Positions 1-60,532 of a stretch of DNA of 64,000 nt are shown here, piece by piece. A program made the position numbers and the translations under genes. The stretch comes from Solibacillus silvestris (GTDB lineage Bacteria > Bacillota > Bacilli > Bacillales_A > Planococcaceae): assembly GCA_001586195.1 (NCBI GenBank), contig CP014609.1:1462001-1526000 (forward strand), in the 5' to 3' direction. The notes beneath the pieces were generated by a model. That model ran no database searches. It saw only the letters and a list, made by a program, of their open reading frames with translations, and was not told where the DNA came from. The stretch's first letter is position 1, and every line of letters starts with the position of its first letter.

Positions 1-337
1 CGCAGAGATGATTGGCATCAACGATATCTGTTTTTACCTTTCGTAAACTAGAACTTTTCGTCTTATAAGAGATGAGTGGATTTACGATAATGATTAAATA
101 ACCTTTGTCTTCAAAATATTGAACAACTGGTGTGTGATAATGGCCTGTAGACTCCATAACTAGGGGAGGTCGCTCTCCTGAAATATCTTCTACTTCTTTA
201 ATAAAATCTAATAAACTAGCTAACCCATCAAGATCATGTTTTACTTTAAAGCTTTTCTTGTAGGGCTTCTTTCTTTCTAAATAAGCTTGAACCTGACTTT
301 CACCTTTAGCTACATCCAGGCCAATGACTGGATTCAT
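1..337 (-). CDS. IS110-family transposase, N-terminal part (runs off window)
   Basis: The reverse strand from the CAT at 335-337 encodes the same N-terminus as the full transposase at 15328-16563 (MNPVIGLDVAKGESQ). This includes the first RuvC-like catalytic aspartate (GLDVAK), the conserved glutamate region (MESTGHYHTP) and the start of the KVKTDIVDANHL motif. A GGAGGAATT ribosome binding site precedes the ATG. Only about 112 codons are inside the window; whether the rest is intact cannot be judged. The protein is a DEDD-type recombinase of the IS110 family, known to work with a bridge RNA. Confidence 0.85.
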   Translation of the reverse strand, partial: MNPVIGLDVAKGESQVQAYLERKKPYKKSFKVKHDLDGLASLLDFIKEVEDISGERPPLVMESTGHYHTPVVQYFEDKGYLIIIVNPLISYKTKSSSLRKVKTDIVDANHLC

Positions 338-343
338 TATAAT

Positions 344-520
344 TCCTCCTTCAAAATGATAATTGCCGGTAACCCCTAAATCCTCTTTGTAGTGTCATAG
401 CTTCGCTTGTTATACGAGATCACTGTCCCAACCAGCCTCAAACATGTTTCTACAAGTAGGGGGTGAACTGTTTTGCGGACGAGGTCTTAGCCCCACGGGC
501 GCGAACGTTCTACCTCGGCT
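344..520 (-). ncRNA. Predicted IS110 bridge RNA, copy A
   Basis: Same sequence as the candidate bridge RNA of the full copy. The left-target guide strand lies at 496-504 (read as TCGCGCCCG on the minus strand). The right-target guide lies at 471-479, whose plus-strand text is TTTTGCGGA. The donor guide lies at 430-436 (GCTGGTT on the minus strand). Ends are estimated from the promoter position and the roughly 177-nt length of the known IS621 bridge RNA. Confidence 0.55.
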
Positions 521-587
521 ACCGTTATCATATATCGATATAAAAAATGGTCAACCAGAAATATTTTCTGGCTGACCTAATAATACG

Positions 588-15131: not shown

Positions 15132-15327
15132 GATTTAGGTCAATATTATTTTCTAAAGCTTTAGCTCTTTTAAATATTTATGTTTTTCCATTAAAACCAG
15201 CTAATAGTTGTCAATAATTTTCATTAAAAATAATAAAAATATCATGTTATACTAAATTTGTGCATGCCAAATAACCGTCCAAATTCTTGATTTGGAAAGT
15301 TTAGGTTTGCTTGGTTAAATTGTTAAA

Positions 15328-16563
15328 TCAAGCTATGTCTTGGAAAGAAGTTTTGTTTTTTAATATTGCATAAATCCAATGTAAGAGTTTGTTTGCACAA
15401 GCTATTACAGCTACTCTAAATGGTTTTCCTTCTTCACGTTTTTTATCATAAAACGCCCGTAGTTTCTTATTACGAGGAAGGATTTCATCTGTAGTTTTCT
15501 GTTTTCGACAATCACGAATTGCACATTTAACAGCCATATACAAAGCTTGCCGTAGTCTGCTAGAGCCTCTTTTGGTTATTCGGTTGTAAGTGCCTTTGAA
15601 TGTACCTGATTCAAAGATACTTGGATCAAGACCGGCAAATGCGACTAGTTTCTTAGGGTGATTAAACCTTTCAATTTCCCCAATTTCAGATATAATCGTG
15701 GCAGCGATTTTTTCTCCGATACCAGGAATTGATTGGATAATCTTCGATTCTTCAATACTTTTGGCCAAAGCATCTATCTCATTTTCAAGTAGGGATAGGT
15801 GTTTTTTGTATTCGAAGATCATGTTAATATACATATCTAAACTTAGGGCAAGGCTAGAATATAAAGCCTGTTGAAATGGATTTTGAGCTGCTGCAGTCAT
15901 TAGCTTTTCAGCCTGTTGATTTGCCCATTGTAGAGAACGAGAATTACAGAATTCTTTTATTTTAGTTGTTAATACTTCGTTATTGGCGCTCAATATATCT
16001 TCTGAAGTAGGATAAGTCTGTAGTATTTTTAAAGAAACATTCGAATATAAGTCGCCAAAAACATTACTATATTCAGGGAATACTTGATCTAAGACTGCCT
16101 GGAATTGTAGTTTAGTTTGTACAAACATGCCTGTAATATTATCGTGCTGTCTCGTAAGATGACGTAAGTTCGCAAGTTGGATGCCACGCTTTTTATAAGG
16201 CTCTAAATCCTCTTTATAATACAGCTCGCAGAGATGATTGGCATCAACGATATCTGTTTTTACCTTTCGTAAACTAGAACTTTTCGTCTTATAAGAGATG
16301 AGTGGATTTACGATAATGATTAAATAACCTTTGTCTTCAAAATATTGAACAACTGGTGTGTGATAATGGCCTGTAGACTCCATAACTAGGGGAGGGCGCT
16401 CTCCTGAAATATCTTCTACTTCTTTAATAAAATCTAATAAACTAGCTAACCCATCAAGATCATGTTTTACTTTAAAGCTTTTCTTGTAGGGCTTCTTTCT
16501 TTCCAAATAAGCTTGAACCTGACTTTCACCTTTAGCTACATCCAGGCCAATGACTGGATTCAT
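15328..16563 (-). CDS. IS110-family transposase (bridge-RNA-type recombinase), full length
   Basis: 411 residues, a normal IS110 length. The N-terminal DEDD/RuvC-like domain has Asp in GLDVAKGE, Glu in MESTGHYHTP and Asp in LRKVKTDIVDANHL. The C-terminal Tnp_20 domain has SIPGIGEKIAATIISEIGEI, LVAFAGLDPSIFESGTFKG (with the conserved serine of the ESG motif) and NRITKRGSSRLRQALYMAV. It should excise the element as a circle and insert it at sites chosen by the bridge RNA. GGAGGAATT lies just before the ATG. Copies A and C have nearly the same DNA sequence, which suggests recent activity. Confidence 0.95.
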   Translation of the reverse strand: MNPVIGLDVAKGESQVQAYLERKKPYKKSFKVKHDLDGLASLLDFIKEVEDISGERPPLVMESTGHYHTPVVQYFEDKGYLIIIVNPLISYKTKSSSLRKVKTDIVDANHLCELYYKEDLEPYKKRGIQLANLRHLTRQHDNITGMFVQTKLQFQAVLDQVFPEYSNVFGDLYSNVSLKILQTYPTSEDILSANNEVLTTKIKEFCNSRSLQWANQQAEKLMTAAAQNPFQQALYSSLALSLDMYINMIFEYKKHLSLLENEIDALAKSIEESKIIQSIPGIGEKIAATIISEIGEIERFNHPKKLVAFAGLDPSIFESGTFKGTYNRITKRGSSRLRQALYMAVKCAIRDCRKQKTTDEILPRNKKLRAFYDKKREEGKPFRVAVIACANKLLHWIYAILKNKTSFQDIA

Positions 16564-16569
16564 TATAAT

Positions 16570-16746
16570 TCCTCCTTCAAAATGATAATTGCCGGTAACC
16601 CCTAAATCCTCTTTGTAGTGTCATAGCTTCGCTTGTTATACGAGATCACTGTCCCAACCAGCCTCAAACATGTTTCTACAAGTAGGGGGTGAACTGTTTT
16701 GCGGACGAGGTCTTAGCCCCACGGGCGCGAACGTTCTACCTCGGCT
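16570..16746 (-). ncRNA. Predicted IS110 bridge RNA, copy B
   Basis: The left-end noncoding region has a promoter and then a foldable RNA. The first loop is closed by GAAC/GTTC and capped by a GGGG/CCTC hairpin. Its 5' strand reads TCGCGCCCG (16722-16730) and matches the left target half of the intergenic repeat at the insertion site. Its 3' strand (16697-16705) is complementary to TTTTGCGGA, which matches the junction at the right end of copy C. A second loop contains GCTGGTT (16656-16662), identical to the element's right end (AGCTGGTTTT), as expected of a donor guide. The pairing partner for the other donor half is not clear. Boundaries are estimates. Confidence 0.65.
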
Positions 16747-16752
16747 ACCGTT

Positions 16753-16780
16753 ATCATATATCGATATAAAAAATGGTCAA
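16753..16780 (-). promoter_or_regulatory. Sigma-A promoter of the bridge RNA / transposase
   Basis: Minus strand: -35 TTGACC (16775-16780), 16-base spacer, -10 TATGAT (16753-16758). The same arrangement occurs in copies A and C. In copy D it is TTGACC (30176-30181), 16 bases, TATTAT (30154-30159). Confidence 0.75.
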
Positions 16781-16813
16781 CCAGAAATATTTTCTGGCTG
16801 ACCTAATAATACG

Positions 16814-16877
16814 AAGGGCGTGATTCTTCAATAAGAAAATCGCGTTATCCCGTTATAGGACCATATTGTTGAATAAC
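16814..16877 (+). repeat. Intergenic repeat R5, interrupted by IS110 copy B
   Basis: From AAGGGCGTGATTCTTC through AATAAGAAAATCGCG to GGACCATATTGTTGAATAAC. The left terminus is missing because the IS110 left end sits there. Compared with the family it lacks the TC of ATCGGGC. Confidence 0.75.
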
Positions 16878-17032
16878 ATTTTTTCTGAAGTAATCCTTAC
16901 TTAACTTTTATGTAGAATCAAAAATATGAAACGCTACCAAAGTGTTATTTGGCACATAATTTCAAAAATTATTGCAATATTCAAACAAAAAGTTAAAATA
17001 AGAACGTAGGTTCTTATCTGGAGGCGCTAATT

Positions 17033-26758: not shown

Positions 26759-26907
26759 TCTTAATCTTCCGCAAAACCAGCTAATAGTTGTCAATAATTT
26801 TCATTAAAAATAATAAAAATATCATGTTATACTAAATTTGTGCATGCCAAATAACCGTCCAAATTCTTGATTTGGAAAGTTTAGGTTTGCTTGGTTAAAT
26901 TGTTAAA

Positions 26908-27391
26908 TCAAGCTATGTCTTGGAAAGAAGTTTTGTTTTTTAATAGTGCATAAATCCAATGTATGAGTTTGTTTGCACAAGCTATTACAGCTACTCTAAA
27001 TGGTTTTCCTTCTTCACGTTTTTTATCATAAAACGCCCGTAATTTCTTATTACGAGGAAGGATTTCATCTGTAGTTTTCTGTTTTCGACAATCACGAATT
27101 GCACATTTAACAGCCATATACAAAGCTTGCCGTAGTCTGCTAGAGCCTCTTTTGGTTATTCGGTTGTAAGTGCCGAACAACTGGTGTGTGATAATGGCCT
27201 GTAGACTCCATAACTAGGGGAGGGCGCTCTCCTGAAATATCTTCTACTTCTTTAATAAAATCTAATAAACTAGCTAGCCCATCAAGATCATGTTTTACTT
27301 TAAAGCTTTTCTTGTAGGGCTTCTTTCTTTCCAAATAAGCTTGAACCTGACTTTCACCTTTAGCTACATCCAGGCCAATGACTGGATTCAT
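26908..27391 (-). pseudogene. IS110 transposase, internally deleted and out of frame
   Basis: The N-terminal 70 codons (start ATG 27391) are followed by loss of 752 bases, then the C-terminal quarter (YNRITKRGSSRLRQALYMAV to SFQDIA). 752 is not a multiple of three, so the halves are in different frames. The conserved serine region is lost. The element could move only if a full transposase acts in trans. Confidence 0.9.
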
Positions 27392-27397
27392 TATAAT

Positions 27398-27574
27398 TCC
27401 TCCTTCAAAATGATAATTGCCGGTAACCCCTAAATCCTCTTTGTAGTGTCATAGCTTCGCTTGTTATACGAGATCACTGTCCCAACCATCCTCAAACATG
27501 TTTCCACAAGTAGGGGGTGAACTGTTTTGCGGACGAGGTCTTAGCCCCACGGGCGCGAACGTTCTGCCTCGGCT
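27398..27574 (-). ncRNA. Predicted IS110 bridge RNA, copy C (variant donor guide)
   Basis: Same RNA as copy B, with target guide strands at 27550-27558 and 27525-27533. The donor guide at 27484-27490 reads AACCATC on the plus strand instead of AACCAGC, a change inside the strand that should match the element's own right end. The promoter is intact. Confidence 0.5.
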
Positions 27575-27641
27575 ACCGTTATCATATATCGATATAAAAA
27601 ATGGTCAACCAGAAATATTTTCTGGCTGACCTAATAATACG

Positions 27642-29269: not shown

Positions 29270-29309
29270 AAAGCCAAGAAATGCTGTGAAACTAACGTTT
29301 CTTGGCTTT
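29270..29309. terminator. Hairpin overlapping the broken end of IS110 copy D
   Basis: Perfect 12-base arms AAAGCCAAGAAA / TTTCTTGGCTTT, then CCCTTTTTTT. The truncated transposase runs into this hairpin and its stop codon lies inside it. The terminator therefore belongs to older flanking DNA joined to the IS by deletion. Confidence 0.75.
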
Positions 29310-29963
29310 CCCTTTTTTTGCCCATTTTTCTGAACGAGTTGTACATAATTCTGCAATTTTACCAGTAAGATCAGATTCGCTTACGCTTAGAACTTCTTCT
29401 GAAGTAGGATAGATTGATAGAATCTGTAACGAAATCTTTGAATAAAGATTCCCAAAGACACCTCTATATTCAGGAAATACTTGATCTAAAATCGATTGTA
29501 GCTGTAATTTTATTTGTGCAGCCGTGCTTGATACCGTTTCTTGTTGTCTAGTGAGATTACGAAGATTTAAGAGTTGTATGCCTCTTTTTTTATATGGTTC
29601 TAACTCTTCCTTATAATACAATTCACATAAGTGATAGGCATCTATAGCATCGGTCTTTACTTTGCGTAAATTTGTACTTCTCGCTCGATGAGAGATAAGT
29701 GGGTTTACAATAATATAGACATATTGTTGCTCCTCCAAAAATTGAATGACAGGCATATGATATTGACCTGTAGATTCTAAAATAACCGAAGGTTGCTTAC
29801 CATCAGCCAAATTCTCAATATCCCTTAGAAATTCTAATAAACTATCTAAACCATCAAGAGTATGTTTAATACTAAAGCTCTTACGATACGGTTTGCCTTT
29901 ATCTAAAAAGGCTTGAACCTGACTTTCTCCTTTTGAAACATCCAGACCAACGACTGGATTCAT
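29292..29963 (-). pseudogene. Diverged IS110 transposase, C-terminally truncated
   Basis: 223 residues. The N-terminal catalytic domain is present (GLDVSKGESQVQ; VILESTGQYHMP; LRKVKTDAIDAYHL) and is clearly related to copy B but distinct, so it is another member of the family. The Tnp_20 domain with the conserved serine is missing. The last residues (KKGKAKKR) come from foreign sequence. Not functional alone. ATG is preceded by GGAGGAG. Confidence 0.85.
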
Positions 29964-30210
29964 AATGAAATCTCCTCCTCTAAAAAATGTTAAATTAGTC
30001 GGTAACCCCTAAAGCTGCTTGTAATGTCATAGGTTCGCTGAAACGGGATCCGTGTCCCAACCAGCTCGAAACATGTTTATACAAGTAGGGGGTGAACAGT
30101 TTTGTTGACGGGATTAAGTCCCACGGGCGCTACGTTCTACCCCGACTACCGTTATAATAAGACCTAAAAGAAAAAGGTCAACCAGAAAAATCTAGCTAAC
30201 CTCATATTAC
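29325..30210 (-). mobile_element. IS110-family element, copy D (diverged, right end lost)
   Basis: Left end at about 30210 (CTCATATTAC), directly followed by repeat R10 (AATCGGGCGC). The left noncoding region keeps promoter and RNA structure but differs in sequence from copies A-C. The right boundary is the truncation near 29325, estimated from loss of transposase similarity. Confidence 0.8.
29975..30147 (-). ncRNA. Predicted IS110 bridge RNA, copy D (different right guide)
   Basis: Same fold as copy B: GAAC/GTTC stem, cap hairpin GGGA/TCCC (GGGG/CCTC in copy B, so the stem is kept although the bases change). Left guide 5' strand GCGCCCG (30124-30130). Right guide at 30100-30108 is complementary to TTTTGTTGA, matching the repeat consensus TTGTTGAA better than the TTTTGCGGA of copies A-C. 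Donor guide GCTGGTT at 30059-30065 is conserved. Boundaries estimated. Confidence 0.6.
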
Positions 30211-30276
30211 AATCGGGCGCGTTTCTTCAATAAGAAGATCGCGTTTTTCCGTTATAGGGCCAGATTGTTGAATAAC
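30211..30276 (+). repeat. Intergenic repeat R10, interrupted by IS110 copy D
   Basis: AATCGGGCGCGTTTCTTC, loop, GAAGATCGCG, TTTTTCCGTTATAGGGCC, AGATTGTTGAATAAC. A near-consensus copy starting exactly at the IS110 left end. Confidence 0.85.
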
Positions 30277-60150: not shown

Positions 60151-60273
60151 TATATTTTATGGAAGGTTACCAAACGGTTGACTTCGTTATTATTGGCTAT
60201 TTCCTTTTTCAACTTATGAGTACTTGTTAAAATCAACCCGTTTTGATAGAATCAAGCTAATTAAATGCATTTG

Positions 60274-60350
60274 CGGGGGGACACAATTGTGTTGAGAAGG
60301 TAAAACCTGACCCTTAGAACCTGACCGTTAATACGGACGTAGGGAGCAAA
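60274..60350 (+). promoter_or_regulatory. TPP riboswitch (THI element), first of two
   Basis: Contains GGGGGACAC, TGTTGAGAAGG, CCTGACCCTTAGAACCTGAC and ACGGACGTAGGGAGC in the right order. These are the conserved blocks of the thiamine pyrophosphate aptamer (usual CTGAGA is TTGAGA). It is followed by its own terminator at 60381-60410. Confidence 0.9.
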
Positions 60351-60380
60351 GTACATATTAGTTTTTCTGTACTTACTATG

Positions 60381-60410: not shown

Positions 60411-60427
60411 ATGCAAATACTTTAATT

Positions 60428-60504
60428 GCAGGGGGACACATTCGTGTTGAGAAGGTTAAAACCTGACCCTTAGAACCTGACAGTTAACACTGACGTAGGG
60501 AGCA
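60428..60504 (+). promoter_or_regulatory. TPP riboswitch (THI element), second of two
   Basis: GGGGGACAC, GTGTTGAGAAGG, CCTGACCCTTAGAACCTGAC and CTGACGTAGGGAGC. Nearly the same aptamer as the first, 154 bases downstream. Differences fall in the variable stems. Confidence 0.9.
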
Positions 60505-60532
60505 ATTATAGGTGTAGTATACACTTTTTTGG

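Follow-up and report, generated by a model that had tools for sequence, protein, structure and literature searches.

A probable bridge RNA-guided IS110-type element homing into an intergenic repeat, with target guides rewritten within its clade

INTRODUCTION

Insertion sequences that target REP elements, with extragenic palindromes serving as insertion sites, were reportedly described by Tobes and Pareja in 2006.

The closest described systems are IS621 and other IS110 elements (PMC11208160, PMC11208158). The element considered here resembles them in its DEDD plus serine recombinase and in a left-end RNA with a target loop and a donor loop; likewise, its predicted guides pair with the bottom strand on the left and with the top strand on the right, its targets are palindromic extragenic repeats and a putative promoter spans the circle junction. 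Guide–target concordance was reported over 5511 ncRNA–target pairs (Durrant 2024, PMC11208160). A guide RNA matching both target strands was also described for the seekRNA of IS1111/IS110 elements (Siddiquee 2024, PMC11187229), another point of likeness; the same paper gives one example of natural re-direction, ISEc11 and ISXne4. The RNA-guidance mechanism is already known from the 2024 IS621 and seekRNA papers, and the present element adds a member rather than a kind.

We consider it very probable that the locus holds an IS110-type element guided by a bridge RNA, which excises as a circle and homes into an intergenic repeat, and whose guides have been rewritten within its clade.

MATERIALS AND METHODS

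The window, i.e. the whole 64 000-nt stretch of Solibacillus silvestris DNA that was analysed, occupies G000:C1:1462001-1526000, where G000 is a genome of 3.99 Mb in a single contig. Relatives were the best 80 of 226 from named genomes, at 65–93% identity; in the genus sample matches were found in 9 of 16 genomes, the window's own included. Copies in the wider order were collected with a right-end (RE) pattern, present in 31 of 261 genomes, and with a second pattern, present in 10 of 261; reversed controls gave 0.

We read 116 elements: 111 with a left flank, 103 with a right flank and 87 with a protein; an earlier reading had covered 95 of 112 left-end (LE) matches. Repeated sites, flanks with N and misread guides were left out before counting. 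L012, L013, L221, L222 and the reverse-strand copies in L033 and L104 were read by eye and stand outside the sets of 102 and 96 sites used below.

RESULTS

The element and its recombinase

Four IS110-type copies lie in the window (Table 1): copies A, B and C are near-identical, while D is divergent and truncated. The window's genome as a whole has four near-identical full-length matches (L001–L004, 99–100%) and several partial or divergent ones. Copy B, which extends past the interval covered by the original prediction, starts at its LE with CGTATTATTAGG (at 16813) and ends at its RE with ATTAGCTGGT (at 15196), the last letters being GCTGGT; its cores are TT at 16815-16814 and TT at 15195-15194. 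The noncoding ends, 250 nt upstream of the transposase at the LE and 132 nt at the RE, follow the layout of the IS110 group. The core of copy A is AT (589-588); copy C has AT on the left (27643-27642) and TT on the right (26775-26774).

The protein of copy B matches both Pfam domains of the IS110 family, DEDD_Tnp_IS110 (1.9e-29) and Transposase_20 (9.3e-26), and a PDB sequence search with E up to 0.001 gave matches only to IS621 (8wt6) and ISCro4 (9t56). Residues D8, E62, D104, D107 and S319 align with D11, E60, D102, D105 and S241 of IS621 (residue numbers from PMC11208158; positions were counted on the alignment, allowing for two extra chain residues), so that the catalytic DEDD plus serine set of the family is present.

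Table 1. Coordinates of the element copies, RNA parts and flanking repeat in the window
Feature	Position	Strand	Basis or remark
Copy A of the element	1..587 (window part)	-	Full copy crosses the window edge, G000:C1:1460966-1462649
Copy B of the IS110-type element	15196..16813	-	Boundaries by comparing copies and junctions
-35 box TTGACA in RE	15209..15214	-	Partner -10 TATTAT in LE at 16811-16806
IS110 transposase/recombinase, 411 aa	15328..16563	-	Pfam and PDB sequence matches
Bridge RNA region, with a 5' stem-loop and target- and donor-binding loops	16592..16803	-	53-sequence alignment and consensus fold; outer boundaries inferred
Probable right donor guide AAGCGAA	16628..16634	-	Sequence
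Left donor guide GCTGGTT	16656..16662	-	Same as RE end plus first core base (15201-15195)
Right target guide TCCGCAAAA (complement TTTTGCGGA)	16697..16705	-	Sequence, guide–target matching
Left target guide TCGCGCCCG	16722..16730	-	Sequence, guide–target matching
5' stem-loop GGTCAGCCAG..CTGGTTGACC	16775..16803	-	Read from sequence
Intergenic repeat to the left of copy B	16816..16880	-	Repeat families D3, D5, D6
Copy C of the element	26776..27641	-	Internal deletion; both ends and bridge RNA kept, most of the gene lost
Copy D of the element	29292..30211	-	Truncated and divergent relative with 72% identity where it matches; lies in another repeat copy

The left-end RNA

The consensus fold of 53 left ends has a target-loop stem, an upper hairpin and a donor-loop stem. 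Compensatory changes were found in 6 of 37 consensus pairs; for instance, columns 42/50 of the target-loop hairpin change from A-U to G-C in 13 sequences, and columns 23/69 of the target-loop stem from G-C to A-U in 6. The RNA with its two internal loops, a variable target loop and a conserved donor loop, has the form of a bridge RNA. Rfam had no family matching the left end, whether gathering thresholds were applied or E values up to 1 were admitted. At gathering thresholds the whole window gave two TPP riboswitches only; they stand in tandem at 60265-60362 and 60420-60518 on the plus strand.

The original prediction had placed two guide strands in one loop of this RNA and had proposed the fold as a check. 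Both strands are unpaired in the consensus (columns 27-37 and 55-65), between conserved stems; the minimum-energy fold of the single window RNA forms a few base pairs between them, which are lost in the consensus. The predicted left strand, the left target guide, lies at 16730-16722; it fits the repeat next to copy B only when the copy's own site is shifted. Complementarity of the predicted right strand to the right junction of copy C also held; that junction (26781-26766) reads GCTGGT[TT]TGCGGAAG, and of the stretch matched to TTTTGCGGA only TGCGGA is flank, the rest being element and core. GCTGGTT in the second loop does equal the element's right end, with the refinement that it includes one core base. 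In copy C this guide is GATGGTT, one base off that of copies A and B. The probable right donor guide AAGCGAA is near-complementary to the core plus LE sequence TTCGTAT, with one G-T and one mismatch.

A putative promoter across the circle junction

The -35 and -10 boxes would make a promoter only across the junction of a circle. In 90 of 90 LE/RE pairs the boxes stand 17 nt (27 pairs) or 18 nt (63 pairs) apart across the joined ends; the LE supplies TATTAT or TAATAT, the RE TTGACA (89 of 90 pairs) or TTGACT (1 of 90). Since the search pattern already demanded the LE motif and a box resembling TTGACA, it is the junction spacing that counts as the result. This spacing is consistent with a circular intermediate, and a promoter spanning the joined ends of IS110 circles was described in PMC11208160.

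Core dinucleotides

Both junctions were readable in 96 site records. Left/right cores were TT/TT in 70, AT/TT in 21 and CT/TT in 1; the right core was TA in the remaining 4, where the right side is seemingly one base shorter. Not one of the 96 had a right core starting with A, nor was TT on the left ever combined with AT on the right. Four right flanks were repeated within the 96, none of them belonging to the 21 AT/TT records. Copy C, outside the 96, is another AT/TT case. L221 and L222, also outside this set, have AT both in the right-guide core and at the right junction, and the left core of L221 is TT; this would be the same rule with letters exchanged. The decayed copy L012 has GT on both sides and does not display the rule.

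As to the RNA, TG directly follows the left guide in 53 of 53 aligned sequences and mismatches a core of AT or TT; the right guide has AA opposite the core TT. By analogy with IS621, the top strands would leave the target core on the left and the donor core on the right, and the bottom strands the opposite arrangement. The 96 sites show the top-strand product alone, as if the top-strand product of an IS621-like chemistry were always retained. Alternatively, the bias may have arisen from mismatch repair or from selection acting on the element.

Guide–target matching across insertion sites

The comparison of sites in other genomes with the loop strands, the other check proposed in the original prediction, came out in its favour. 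The 7-nt left guide had at least 6 matches to its own flank at 86 of 102 distinct sites if a shift of 1 nt is permitted, and at 72 of 102 unshifted; for shuffled flanks, with the shift allowed, the rate was 0.24%. The 6-nt right guide had at least 5 matches, counting G-U wobble, at 57 of 88 sites (1.9% when shuffled). Permuting the guide–target pairs lowered the left match from 6.77 of 9 to 5.34 (78 sites; maximum of 5000 permutations 5.85) and the right match from 4.13 of 6 to 3.40 (70 sites; maximum of 5000 permutations 3.74).

Mutual information peaks on the pairing diagonal at left positions -2, -3, -5, -6 and -9 and right positions +1 and +2; its maxima lie off the diagonal at left -1, -4, -7 and -8 and at right +3 to +6. 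Left -2, -3, -5 and -6 and right +1 show as the positions that are read most clearly.

Fewer than 6 of 7 left matches, despite the shift, were seen at 16 of 102 sites and fewer than 5 right matches at 31 of 88. Elements with the guide CTGCCCG have an extra C at several sites, and the right flank of L040 has no match to its guide. Copy B itself fits imperfectly: its left flank, CACGCCC with core TT, has to be shifted by 1 nt to suit the guide, and on the right the flank TAATGGA agrees poorly with its guide; better-fitting left flanks in the same genome are AGCGCCCG[AT] of copy A, CGCGCCCG[AT] of L002 and L004 and CGCACCCG[AT] of copy C. A 1-nt shift seems to be tolerated, as does a mismatch at the first base of the core.

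Changes of guide within the clade

The transposase tree had 77 rows; with one misread row omitted from the count, left guides fell into 18 seven-letter classes with at least 29 changes on the tree (19 and 30 with that row included). GCGCCCG guides occur in separate clades (that of the window, the L086/L093 clade and L074), TGGCCC guides in the L009 and L090 clades and CTGCCCG in several. L083, whose broken gene keeps it off the tree, has the guide CGGCCCG at the target TGGCCCG.

Within the window's genome alone, copies A–C aim at GCGCCCG[AT]TGTTGAA, L009 has the guide ATGGCCCT and occupies the repeat's other end, and L012 has the guide CTGGCCCG and is inserted in CTGGCCCG. A further lineage (L118/L205, L206, L124, L175, L184 and reverse-strand copies in L033, L046 and L104) occupies the repeat on its opposite strand; the guides of this lineage are, e.g. 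ACGGGGGCG and ACGGGTGCG, with variants ACGGGGTCG (L184) and ACCGGTGCG (L046). Judging from these sequences, guides would have moved from one sub-site or sequence variant of intergenic repeats to another, and even between their strands. In L104, at about 1-130, a single copy of the repeat harbours a back-to-back pair of IS110 elements in opposite orientation, of which the reverse one is cut off by the contig end.

Alternatively, the guides may have changed by neutral drift, many copies being dead, and not through adaptive tracking of the repeat; this would touch the evolutionary side of the explanation and leave RNA guidance intact. Many copies are, indeed, truncated or deleted. Drifted guides, however, would tend to mismatch their own sites, yet the 86 of 102 sites above match with the shift allowed, and like guide classes (GCGCCCG, TGGCCC, CTGCCCG) turn up in separate clades. 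We regard drift as unlikely, though it deserves more weight than the other alternatives.

Capture of a guide by copying of the target was also considered. The guide of L012 equals its left flank over 11 nt, which compared with sister elements is two extra letters only. Identity beyond position -7 was 0.45 versus 0.39 in permutation at -8, 0.51 versus 0.39 at -9 and 0.09 versus 0.09 at -10. Guide capture is unsupported, as there is a single case and little excess identity beyond -7.

The truncated copies L199 and L047 show the left target fused to the left guide in the bridge RNA, AAAGCACCCG being followed directly by TGGGG in the former and AAAGCCCCCG by TGGGA in the latter. The two cases look as if the deletion had been promoted by the direct repeat that guide–target identity creates.

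Correction for relatedness and swaps within genomes

Phylogenetically independent pairs with different guides were drawn in 300 random pairings, leaving out the L065 guide and the L058 flank; whole guides were compared instead of single letters, for which there were too few pairs. The own left target beat the swapped one in a mean of 16.7 of 22 pairs, lost in 0.8 and tied in 4.4. With L065 (misread guide) and L058 (gap-side flank) included, the result was 16.8 wins of 23 and 1.8 losses. For the right guide the own target won in 10.7 of 22, lost in 3.0 and tied in 8.3. The left guide–target match is solidly independent of relatedness; the right match is suggestive after the correction. The covariation by which a bridge RNA is recognized was found on the left, and on the right it is weak once the tree is taken into account.

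Guides were also exchanged between elements of the same genome, excluding the L058 row at an assembly gap. In CH30_1T, L058 and L079 each matched their own guide at 8 of 8 letters and the other's at 5; in Aquibacillus, L076 scored 8 with its own guide versus 4 and L080 7 versus 3. In the window's genome L002 and L004 scored 8, versus 4 with the guide of L009, and L003 scored 7 versus 5. The own guide also won in FJAT-29790 (L034, 7 versus 5; L083, 7 versus 6), for L045 of Domibacillus (7 versus 4) and in Alkalihalobacillus (L110, 7 versus 6; one L101 copy, 7 versus 5). Ties were seen for the other L101 copy (7 versus 7), L001 (2 versus 2) and L009 (3 versus 3), the sites of L001 and L009 being ones that need a shift; L073 did worse with its own guide (2) than with the other's (3). 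Sister elements with a one-letter difference between guides, L041 versus L042 and L109 versus L108, match their targets at that letter.

These swaps bear on the possibility that the recombinase protein alone reads a motif of the repeat and that the likeness to the RNA arose in lineages confined to hosts with such repeats. Guide and target do have a host history in common, the right-guide evidence is weak once tree-corrected, and the swaps at L073, L001, L009 and one L101 copy are tied or unfavourable. Against a protein-only reading stand the single genomes with different guides at different matching sites (L058/L079, L076/L080), the one-letter guide differences that track the target letter, and the mutual information, which lies on the diagonal at -5 and -6, where the left side varies most. 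We judge it very improbable.

Homing by an RNA guide into an intergenic repeat of Firmicutes, the central claim of the original prediction, is thus supported: matching exceeds chance and the left match survives the correction for relatedness.

The host repeat and empty sites

In the window's genome the pattern GCGCCCGATTGTTGAA was found at 57 places when up to 2 mismatches were allowed, and the reversed pattern at 0. All 57 are uninterrupted target-like sites, and 49 of 57 have the core AT. They lie mainly near 0.37, 1.40-1.64, 1.87-1.91 and 2.89-2.97 Mb of the genome, the window falling within one of these regions; the host repeat looks clustered in few chromosome regions. For insertion L004 a probable empty orthologous site, known by its left flank, was found in the sister genome G009; it reads GCGCCCAGATTGTGGAATAAGGG, with core AT. 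A place in G015, tried as an empty site for copy C, was set aside since only the right flank of copy C aligns there; a consensus and fold of the repeat alignment, which mixed long and short forms, were set aside as well.

That the repeat belongs to the element or travelled with it, guide–flank likeness then being a matter of common origin, accords with the repeat on the left side of copies A, B and C but is largely contradicted by the empty sites, both the 57 in this genome and the probable orthologous one, and by relatives at different sites with correspondingly different guides; it may be dismissed as exceedingly improbable.

DISCUSSION

Guidance by a bridge RNA, our preferred reading, would operate as follows. 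The IS110-type element would leave its site as a circle; the joined ends would create a promoter from which the bridge RNA is transcribed; and the circle would then insert through RNA-guided recombination. The target would be one sub-site within a palindromic repeat that is abundant between genes, and guides in the clade would have been rewritten repeatedly to suit different sub-sites, variant sequences or the opposite strand of repeats of this kind.

Homology, the fold, guide–target matching, phylogenetic independence on the left side, the anatomy of the junction and one probable empty orthologous site support this reading directly. RNA expression, circle formation, catalysis and a selection behind the guide changes are what we infer.

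Taken further, the data incline us to a joint reading that we hold to be somewhat better than an even bet: that this IS110 clade spreads by guide rewriting; that co-resident lineages partition the repeat among its long-form end, its opposite end, its short form and either strand; and that, where cores are mismatched, the top-strand product is always kept.

What the element adds is the repeated retargeting across one clade and the biased inheritance of a mismatched core. Searches of the open-licence PMC literature turned up no paper on IS110 insertion into this host repeat, in itself weak evidence. The clade can be seen as a natural experiment in RNA-guided recombination, informative on which positions are read and on the fate of a mismatched core in cells. 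It offers a record of natural retargeting for a system under development as a genome-editing tool, as well as a source of recombinases with natural guide diversity.

Compared with the REP-targeting insertion sequences, insertion into a palindrome is alike; here, the repeat is another one and the evolution of the guide is visible. In comparison with IS621, as described in the papers cited above, the recombinase has 411 aa rather than 326 and the donor core is TT rather than CT; the target core is often AT, the host repeat is a different one and many guide changes occurred inside one clade. In contrast to the single natural re-direction given for the seekRNA elements, many redirections are seen here, mapped on a tree, among the sub-sites of intergenic repeats.
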